From a virus: a stretch of DNA of 31,073 nucleotides. The stretch spans positions 1 through 31,073 of IMG/VR virus record IMGVR_UViG_3300013233_000264, one strand, 5' to 3'. The notes under the pieces were generated by a model that was not told the DNA's origin, ran no database searches, and saw only the letters and a list, made by a program, of their open reading frames with translations. Positions 66 to 31,073 of the stretch are shown in pieces. Both the position numbers and the translations under genes were made by a program. Position 1 is the first letter of the stretch; each line of letters starts with the position of its first letter.

Positions 66-83
66 GGAGACTGGGATGGCTAA
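3..83 (+). CDS. Gly-X repeat protein, C-terminal part (continues from 30915 across the junction)
   Basis: In the frame beginning at base 3, the hexamer array reads as alternating glycine and Tyr, Asp, Ser or Gly residues. It leaves the repeat with Gly-Asp-Trp-Asp-Gly and stops at TAA 81-83. The start codon is not here. The same reading frame begins at the GTG at 30915 at the other end of the window, and the two halves join in frame once the 8-bp terminal overlap is collapsed. The stop overlaps the ninG start (ATG 76-78) by 8 bases, so the two genes are probably translationally coupled. The function is unknown. The composition is that of a disordered, low-complexity chain. Confidence 0.6.
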   Translation, partial: YGDGDGYGDGGGYGDGYGSGSGDWDG

Positions 84-609
84 AAAATGCAGGCAGTGCG
101 GCACGAAATTTGAGGCGAGAAATTCGCTGCACGTTGCCTGCTCTCCACGCTGCGCCATTGATCTGGCGCAGGCCAAGGCCGACAAGAAGCGCCGTGGCGA
201 GACGCTGGCAATGAAACGCAGGCTCAACGACAACGACCGGCAGTATCAGCTCAAACAGGCGCAGGCGACGTTCAATCGCTACATTAGACTGAGAGACGAG
301 GGGTTGCCGTGCATCAGTTGCCAGCGGATGCACTCGGGGCAGATCCATGCTGGGCATTATCGCAGTGTTGGAGCGCATCCAGAGTTGCGGTTCAATCCGG
401 ACAACTGTCACGCTCAATGTATGCCGTGCAACACGCATCTGAGCGGCAATATCGTGAATTATCGGATTAATCTCATTGATAAAATCGGGATTGAGCGAGT
501 TGATGCAGTCGAAAAAAGGGAGCGAACTGAGAAATTAACGATTGATGACATCAAGGCCATCAAAGCCAAATTCAAAACACTATGCAAAAAACTGGAGAGT
601 GAAAAATGA
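76..609 (+). CDS. ninG: NinG (Rap) recombination protein
   Basis: NinG/Rap is a lambdoid recombination protein that acts on branched DNA together with phage annealing systems. The 177-residue product has a Cys pair near the start (C5, C8) with further cysteines at C22 and C26. It then has an HNH-like zinc core: C79-x2-C82, H86, H91, H94, N110, C111, C115, C118 and N119, followed by a Lys-rich C-terminus. I chose ATG 76 because GGAG (66-69) lies 6 bases upstream and residue 1 matches the family start (MAKKC). An ATG-only extension to base 4 merely reads the hexamer array. The stop overlaps the next start as ATGA. The gene belongs to the rightward operon with the DUF6948-like gene and the Gly-X gene, apart from the ERF/Exo/SSB genes on the other strand. 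Confidence 0.93.
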   Translation: MAKKCRQCGTKFEARNSLHVACSPRCAIDLAQAKADKKRRGETLAMKRRLNDNDRQYQLKQAQATFNRYIRLRDEGLPCISCQRMHSGQIHAGHYRSVGAHPELRFNPDNCHAQCMPCNTHLSGNIVNYRINLIDKIGIERVDAVEKRERTEKLTIDDIKAIKAKFKTLCKKLESEK

Positions 610-21662: not shown

Positions 21663-21674
21663 GATATCTTATGA

Positions 21675-21698
21675 TTATGGTTATGGTTATGGTTATGG
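21675..21698 (-). repeat. Four CCATAA hexamers in the holin leader
   Basis: Four perfect copies of TTATGG on the plus strand (CCATAA in the leftward mRNA) end 12 bases before the holin start region. They are not in an open frame with the start (a TAA intervenes). The unit resembles one hexamer of the Gly-X array (GGGTAT) but differs by one base. It may tune holin translation through length changes; this is inference. Confidence 0.9.
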
Positions 21699-21729
21699 TT
21701 TGTTAAAACTGCCATCCTTGGCGCGTTGA

Positions 21730-30562: not shown

Positions 30563-30928
30563 ATGAATATTGATGAAATGACGCTTGGCGATTTGAAAAA
30601 AATAGCGTCAATGTTTGGCAGCACCAGCACTGCAAAAGCGGTTCCTGATTTTTCTGGGAAATACGTCATTGTGCGAACTCGAAACGAGGGCGTGAATGCT
30701 GGATTAGTTGTTGAAAATGGTGTTGGATTTGTGCATTTAAGTAACGCGCGAAGGCTCTGGAGCATTGTTCCTCCGTCTGATTGCGAAAAATGGTACGAGG
30801 GCGTTGCAAAATCAGGATTGGGAGAGGGATCTAAAACGTCGATTGAGTCTGAAAAACTGATCGTTGAGGACTACTCGATCACCGTGTGCTCTGGTGTTTC
30901 AGAGGAGAATATCCGTGGATTCAAATAA
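30563..30928 (+). CDS. DUF6948-like protein, 121 aa
   Basis: After a short helical start (MNIDEMTLGDLKKIASMFG), the body matches the DUF6948 pattern: KYVIVRTRNEGVNAGLVVEN, LSNARRLWSI, and GLGEGSKTSIESEKLIVEDY then SITVC. The role is unknown; the family is common in phages. The gene starts the rightward operon with the Gly-X protein and ninG. It overlaps the Gly-X GTG by 14 bases. Confidence 0.78.
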   Translation: MNIDEMTLGDLKKIASMFGSTSTAKAVPDFSGKYVIVRTRNEGVNAGLVVENGVGFVHLSNARRLWSIVPPSDCEKWYEGVAKSGLGEGSKTSIESEKLIVEDYSITVCSGVSEENIRGFK

Positions 30929-31073
30929 ATCTATTTCTGGGTATGGGTATGGGTATGGGTCTGGGTCTGGGTCTGGGGATGGGGATGGGTCTGGGTCTGG
31001 GGATGGGTCTGGGGATGGGTATGGGTATGGGCCTGGGTATGGGTCTGGGTCTGGGTCTGGGGATGGGTATGGG
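30915..31073 (+). CDS. Gly-X repeat protein, N-terminal part
   Basis: GTG 30915-30917 has AGAGGAG 7 bases upstream, one of the best ribosome sites in the window. The protein starts MDSNKSIS and then alternates Gly with Tyr, Ser, Asp or Pro for 22 units to the window end, continuing at base 3 after the overlap is collapsed (total 77 residues in this assembly). Every variable codon ends in T (TAT, TCT, GAT, CCT, GGT). Such Gly/Tyr/Ser chains are typically disordered and can self-associate. The function is unknown. Confidence 0.68.
   Translation, partial: MDSNKSISGYGYGYGSGSGSGDGDGSGSGDGSGDGYGYGPGYGSGSGSGDGYG
30939..31073 (+). repeat. GGGNNT hexamer array, right part
   Basis: Twenty-three GGG triplets exactly 6 bases apart, separated by TAT, TCT, GAT or CCT. 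It continues at the left end of the window. Changes by whole units keep the reading frame. Confidence 0.97.

Follow-up and report, generated by a model that had tools for sequence, protein, structure and literature searches.

The window analysed here, that is the whole stretch of 31,073 nt, is the entire virus record IMGVR_UViG_3300013233_000264, which is cut inside a repeat array. At its right end, the plus strand carries a gene of 121 residues (positions 30563-30928) assigned by Pfam to DUF6948 (PF22253), for which an AlphaFold2 model and fold matches point to a predicted Sm-like fold. It is followed by the 5' part of a gene encoding glycine at every second residue (the Gly-X gene; 30915-31073, plus strand), which runs off the record. 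A ribosome-binding site, GAGGAG (30902-30907, plus strand), ends 7 nt before the GTG start at 30915, in agreement with the ribosome site and GTG start noted in an earlier sequence-only reading. This start overlaps the end of the DUF6948 ORF (30928) by 14 nt, which matches the rule for starts in the family described below. The N-terminus VDSNKSIS leads into the array (30939-31073, plus strand), which begins 11 nt after the DUF6948 stop codon on the same strand. It comprises 22 in-phase GGGNNT units (30939-31070) and a final GGG, with TCT (9), TAT (7), GAT (5) and CCT (1) as X codons, corresponding to 9 Ser, 7 Tyr, 5 Asp and 1 Pro.

The left end of the window carries, on the same strand, 10 further GGGNNT units (6-65; GAT 4, TAT 3, TCT 2, GGT 1). 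The frame continues there as ...GSGSGDWDG up to a TAA codon at 81-83, and the segment 1-83 (plus strand) would be the 3' part of the Gly-X gene, ending in GDWDG, provided that the frame is continuous from one record end to the other. The ninG gene (NinG/Rap junction endonuclease; 76-609, plus strand; PHROG 171, E 2.3e-76) starts at an ATG (76-78) that overlaps the Gly-X stop. The codon counts at both ends agree with the pattern first read from the letters, namely Gly at every second residue with Tyr, Ser, Asp, Pro or Gly between. All X codons within the array end in T, as had also been noted, and 30 of the 32 encode Tyr, Ser or Asp. The array is not chance sequence: (GGGNNT)4 has 26 overlapping matches in the window and none in 100 dinucleotide-preserving shuffles. 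The perfect phase had been taken as an argument against simple-sequence noise. The phase is real, but all three forward frames of this hexamer array are open, so that an open phase alone proves nothing. A second small array, GGTTAT repeated five times (21669-21700, plus strand), lies in a gap between minus-strand ORFs and encodes Gly-Tyr in one plus-strand frame.

The record ends lie inside the array, the length and frame of which depend on how these ends join. The two flanks of the array lie on one strand, which fits a circular or redundant molecule. The exact overlaps between the record ends are 1, 2 or 8 nt. Of these, only the overlaps of 2 and 8 nt preserve the Gly-X frame, and the protein would then have 77-79 residues. 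An overlap of 1 nt or of 0 (plain juxtaposition) breaks the frame, and juxtaposition would yield a Gly-Met frame fused to NinG. Such an N-terminal fusion was rejected, as relatives as a rule have no start in that frame. The proposal that both window ends read as one protein was therefore not upheld as it stood, and the overlap of its stop with ninG is real, but the link of that stop to the right-end start depends on the frame across the record ends.

Pairing of Gly-X arrays with DUF6948

Scanning IMG/VR with (GGGNNT)6GGG gave at least 118 stretches, most of them plain single-unit repeats. Among the matches listed, a distinct class exhibits the same mixture of GGGTAT, GGGTCT and GGGGAT as the window, with a short N-terminus before an array that usually lies just downstream of a DUF6948 gene. 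A DUF6948 alignment search provided 142 loci, comprising 80 that were kept from 582 IMG/VR relatives and 62 from GTDB. The GTDB loci are assigned to many phyla, although misbinning may account for some of those placed in archaea and CPR. A Gly-X run was found at most 400 nt downstream of DUF6948 in 128 of these 142 loci. The loci are partly redundant, a similarity filter leaving 111, and carry a mild selection bias, since the DUF6948 copies were identified from their similarity to genes initially seen next to arrays. As for the other loci, 5 reach the edge of their contig within 150 nt, a single one has an upstream run and 8 have none by this test; in 4 of the 5 inspected loci of this last kind, Gly-rich stretches are present but are shorter or degenerate. 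Away from DUF6948, 2 strict Gly-X runs, both at one locus, were found in 508 kb of flanking DNA, and none in a further 220 kb of other DNA.

The converse scan, with (GGCKMT)7GGC, is blind to DUF6948. Among arrays with enough upstream sequence, and with an alphabet filter applied, those that mix Ser, Tyr, Asp and Asn lie next to DUF6948 in 60 of 66 cases (on its downstream side in 59), and unmixed arrays with enough sequence in 6 of 34. About one array in ten has no DUF6948 nearby, for example at loci L039 and L091. The window gene fits the definition of the family, as a Gly-X run with X mostly Ser, Tyr, Asp or Asn lies within 400 nt downstream of DUF6948 on the same strand. The arrays represent a widespread and, it appears, undescribed phage gene family, and the window array very probably encodes a translated gene of this DUF6948-coupled family, as judged from sequence comparison.

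The sequence-only reading had tied the repeat to ninG. This did not hold: the conserved neighbour is DUF6948, and distant NinG relatives lack the array, so NinG was dismissed as a meaningful neighbour and its adjacency is incidental. The close capsid relative L126/G001, a phage with a 94% identical capsid protein, likewise has neither ninG nor the array; its early region is unrelated, which reflects modular exchange. Upstream of DUF6948 in the window, a repressor-like gene (phrog_7950) and an anti-repressor gene lie on the minus strand, so that the plus-strand run looks like an early operon. Across the family loci, the named neighbours are RecT/Erf/Bet annealing proteins, exonucleases and replication proteins, no single family being dominant.

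Profile databases offer little on these genes. The array-only relatives L140 and L135 gave no PHROG or NCBIfam match, and members with C-terminal domains gave sub-threshold Pfam and NCBIfam matches together with one match each to phrog_18306 and phrog_20392, both of unknown function. When phages were searched directly at the DNA level with the window end, no match was obtained, arrays being masked in such a search by its low-complexity filter. Of the entries DUF6948 (PF22253), to which the upstream gene of the window belongs, and phrog_18306, both of unknown function, neither describes a separate Gly-X gene. Within the open-licence PMC literature searched, no paper names DUF6948, and the repeat strings do not occur in connection with phages. 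The main result is the Gly-X family itself, together with its DUF6948 partner and the evidence that selection acts on the protein. What appeared to be a simple-sequence oddity is a phage gene family of wide distribution, with a constant partner for which a fold is predicted. In 30 of the 142 loci, the contig ends at most 400 nt downstream of DUF6948, compared with 7 upstream; arrays probably break assemblies and are undercounted, which would explain recurrent contig breaks in viral metagenomes.

Reading frame, composition and length of the arrays

Frameshifted or random arrays in related phages, which the sequence-only reading had named as grounds for its refutation, were looked for. Instead, 118 of the 119 arrays with a start have a start of the Gly-X frame within 20 nt of the DUF6948 stop codon, 65 of them with an overlap of exactly 13 nt, whereas the other two frames have a start so placed in only 16 and 15 of 129 cases. 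Public annotation has in some cases followed another frame. In L139 (1786-2031) and L143 (1216-1788), the Met-Ala/Leu frame is annotated and the proper start lies in the Gly-X frame. In Chlorobiaceae phage CV-1-33 and in MW202478, the proper start belongs to a Gly-X frame other than that of the annotated MAMALA ORFs, and Gly-X arrays explain mis-annotated ORFs of this type.

The 3861 X residues comprise 1182 Ser, 1007 Tyr, 849 Asp and 270 Asn, on codons ending in C or T. The main Gly codon varies between loci (GGC in 100 of 135, GGT in 26, GGG in 5 and GGA in 4) and is nearly uniform within single arrays, which may reflect recent expansion of one hexamer. The description of the array as GGG-based is accurate for the window, but such codons are exceptional in the family. 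Expected counts were derived on the assumption that positions 1 and 2 of the X codon vary independently, no alphabet filter being applied here. On this basis, Ala (GCY) is observed 11 times versus about 280 expected, Thr (ACY) 19 versus 110, and Cys 13 versus 65, whereas Ser encoded by AGY occurs 62 times versus 10 expected. As the same amino acids are kept on different codons and their one-step neighbours are avoided, the codon statistics indicate that selection acts on the protein and not on a G-quadruplex.

Comparison of close relatives revealed how the arrays change. In eight phages, namely seven Pectobacterium phages and Dickeya phage Setonix, the N-terminus MSKLIKPE(K/R)YG is constant and the end of the protein nearly so, whereas the coding sequences range from 162 to 270 nt, differ only by multiples of 6, and show a changed unit order. 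Ymer, Abuela, Amona and Pappous are identical to Koroua over the 200 nt after the gene, and their arrays differ from that of Koroua. From these alignments, in-frame change of length and unit order is fast, and the repeat evolves very rapidly under protein-level constraint. The retention of the alphabet on different codons, the coupled starts and the in-frame length change in relatives all bear out the view that this is a real Gly-X protein and not simple-sequence noise. The Gly-X frame was also found in other cultured relatives: Iodobacter phage phiPLPE, in which the ORF is without annotation (L138), Vibrio phage IKEMa6-1 and CV-1-33, in which the array is annotated in the wrong frame. phiPLPE and the Ymer-group Pectobacterium phages are thus cultured phages for function tests and offer a handle on early phage function. 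DUF6948 followed by a Gly-X frame was also seen in prophage DNA of Neisseria gonorrhoeae and N. sicca (L141, L279 and L281).

Two explanations that would make the protein secondary have to be weighed against these data. The repeat could work as a DNA or RNA element (a G-quadruplex, an attachment site or a recombination hot spot), with translation being incidental. The G3N3 units of the window have the canonical G-quadruplex spacing, and Comeau et al. (2012; PMC3391216) listed the phiPLPE copy, (KMGCCG)35 at 46,046-46,255, among DNA repeats and speculated that it might be an attachment site. These coordinates correspond to the Gly-X ORF after DUF6948 in L138, which is therefore a family member; its coding frame and its pairing with DUF6948 passed unnoticed in that paper. 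The clustering of contig ends downstream of DUF6948 also fits such an element, but any repeat is expected to give contig ends. A G-quadruplex function was rejected given that GGG is the main Gly codon at so few loci. Since, in addition, the alphabet is kept across codon backgrounds, with Ser enriched through both TCY and AGY and Ala avoided, and since both the coupled starts and the conserved ends keep the array in the Gly-X frame, a nucleic acid element is very unlikely to be what the repeat represents. Selfish or neutral expansion, in which slippage makes a tolerated hexamer array, would account for the near-uniform codons within an array and for the whole-hexamer length steps between close phages, both of which are as slippage or unequal recombination would give. 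Nevertheless, the arrays turn up repeatedly next to a single gene family, in phages whose hosts belong to many groups, and just two runs occur in the 508 kb of flanking DNA. The shared restricted alphabet and the strong avoidance of the Ala, Thr and Cys neighbours contradict neutral expansion at the level of codon statistics, which leaves it extremely improbable.

Predicted fold of DUF6948

The ORF at 30563-30928 passes the Pfam gathering score of DUF6948 (37.3 bits versus 27, E 3.1e-9, profile positions 1-75 of 85). Its AlphaFold2 model, built with 112 sequences, has a pLDDT of 90.9 and a pTM of 0.73. The top PDB match of this model in Foldseek is an Sm protein chain of the U1 snRNP (E 3.8e-3, probability 1.0), and after realignment 50 of the 50 PDB chains listed are Sm or LSm proteins (Z 7.2-8.1, rmsd of about 2-3 Å over 60-77 residues). 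The best of these matches reaches Z 8.1 with an rmsd of 2.2 Å over 65 residues, a Z near 8 being a value that a common arrangement can give. Among viral models, the best named matches are DUF6948 proteins, with an RNA-binding protein of Gordonia phage Reyja at rank 24.

Sequence homology of DUF6948 to Hfq or LSm was looked for and not found. The Pfam profiles of Hfq (PF17209) and LSM (PF01423) had no match in the record while control genomes were positive, profile comparison of DUF6948 with Hfq and LSm gave hhalign probabilities of 0.1-0.3, and a profile search of PDB sequences with DUF6948 found no relative. As the fold matches come without sequence support, we refer to a predicted Sm-like fold rather than to a Sm protein. 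On the strength of the model, DUF6948 likely adopts a small beta-barrel of the Sm-like (LSm/Hfq) type. It is not strongly basic, with a mean net charge of +1.8 and a value of -2 for the window protein.

Possible role of the Gly-X chain

The Gly-X proteins are acidic, with a net charge of about -9 per 100 residues. Judged by composition, the chain is probably disordered. Silk-like and Gly/Tyr/Ser low-complexity domains are Gly-rich and bear Tyr and Ser. The phage chain is similarly Gly-rich, and by analogy with these domains its self-association is plausible, as had been suggested from its composition; its regular Asp, unlike in those domains, makes it acidic. In eukaryotes, SmD1, SmD3 and LSm4 combine a Sm fold with a strict Gly-Arg dipeptide tail. 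This is an analogy only, as X is Arg there and acidic, aromatic or Ser in the phage chain. Hfq with its disordered tail is the closest likeness, in that a Sm-type barrel (predicted here) goes with an acidic or Gly-rich low-complexity tail: the acidic tail of Hfq, an acidic tip in E. coli, mimics nucleic acid (PMC5606850), and Gly-rich GGFGGQ repeats of Acinetobacter Hfq matter for function (PMC11617691). However, the phage chain is normally encoded by a separate, coupled gene and is strictly Gly-X with Ser, Tyr and Asp, and DUF6948 is without detected sequence homology to Hfq.

In the mechanism that we propose, translation of a (Gly-[Ser/Tyr/Asp])n low-complexity protein would be coupled to that of the DUF6948 gene upstream. 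DUF6948, possibly in ring form, would bind nucleic acid in the early genome region, and the Gly-X chain would be its acidic, disordered, multivalent partner. The chain could then serve as a tail provided in trans, or in cis in certain phages, comparable to the Hfq tails that are Gly-rich or acidic; it would modulate the binding of nucleic acid, keep the complexes together in a loose assembly, or both. Composition would matter in such a system, whereas length and order would matter little. A DUF6948-coupled Gly-X chain acting as the partner of a Sm-like nucleic-acid-binding protein is our best explanation as a whole, although we hold it with slightly less than even confidence. The tail or scaffold mechanism itself, which draws on analogy, is more tentative. 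In its boldest form, which we consider doubtful, a Sm-like ring and a coupled hypervariable Gly-[Ser/Tyr/Asp] polymer would together form a ribonucleoprotein or condensate of the phage, which would organise RNA or DNA transactions early in infection, with the tail in trans and free in length, in phages with hosts from many bacterial groups. In this family, conserved composition goes together with free variation of length and order, a natural experiment that bears on a hard question in disordered-protein biology.

Other roles for a translated Gly-X protein can be envisaged. The chain could be a flexible or silk-like spacer for display or linkage, the work being done by its ends or C-terminal domains and DUF6948 being only an operon mate. 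Strict Gly alternation recalls silk, and about 20 members carry one of two conserved domains after the array, one of which is modelled confidently (pLDDT 87). However, 175 of the 206 complete Gly-X genes, including that of the window, have at most 20 residues after the array and thus nothing to display, and fusions to DUF6948 exist: both proteins are encoded by one ORF in L121, and the phrog_18306 profile spans Gly-X and then DUF6948. A spacer role is unlikely for the family, although in members with a C-terminal domain the chain might additionally act as a linker or display arm. An acidic, fast-changing chain might also act as a decoy that titrates a host defence or degradation factor. The early-region position beside recombination and replication genes, the acidic net charge and the very fast change of length and order would suit such a counter-defence role, but the composition is conserved even though the hosts span many phyla, in contrast to most host-specific inhibitors, and we regard a decoy as rather improbable. 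The partnership with DUF6948 remains our preferred reading.

The commoner of the two C-terminal domains (L337:68-571 and L073:2857-3360; alignment A6) has the pattern FAHG..TL...WH..LTGSC..GR..F. It has no Pfam match over the cut-off, and Foldseek returned no convincing PDB match (best E 0.4). The second domain, AFWRS..GPL..C..ALHAT..P.KWKGER, was seen in L061, L108, L360 and L400. Multiple copies of the genes were also observed. L091 (718-1452, minus strand) and L092 exhibit four tandem Gly-X ORFs with a constant cassette between them (start MIDGRGSG, end WDEVIS), and no DUF6948 was detected near these ORFs. In L106 (10-991) and L144 (2303-3285), it is the pair of DUF6948 and Gly-X genes that is duplicated in tandem.
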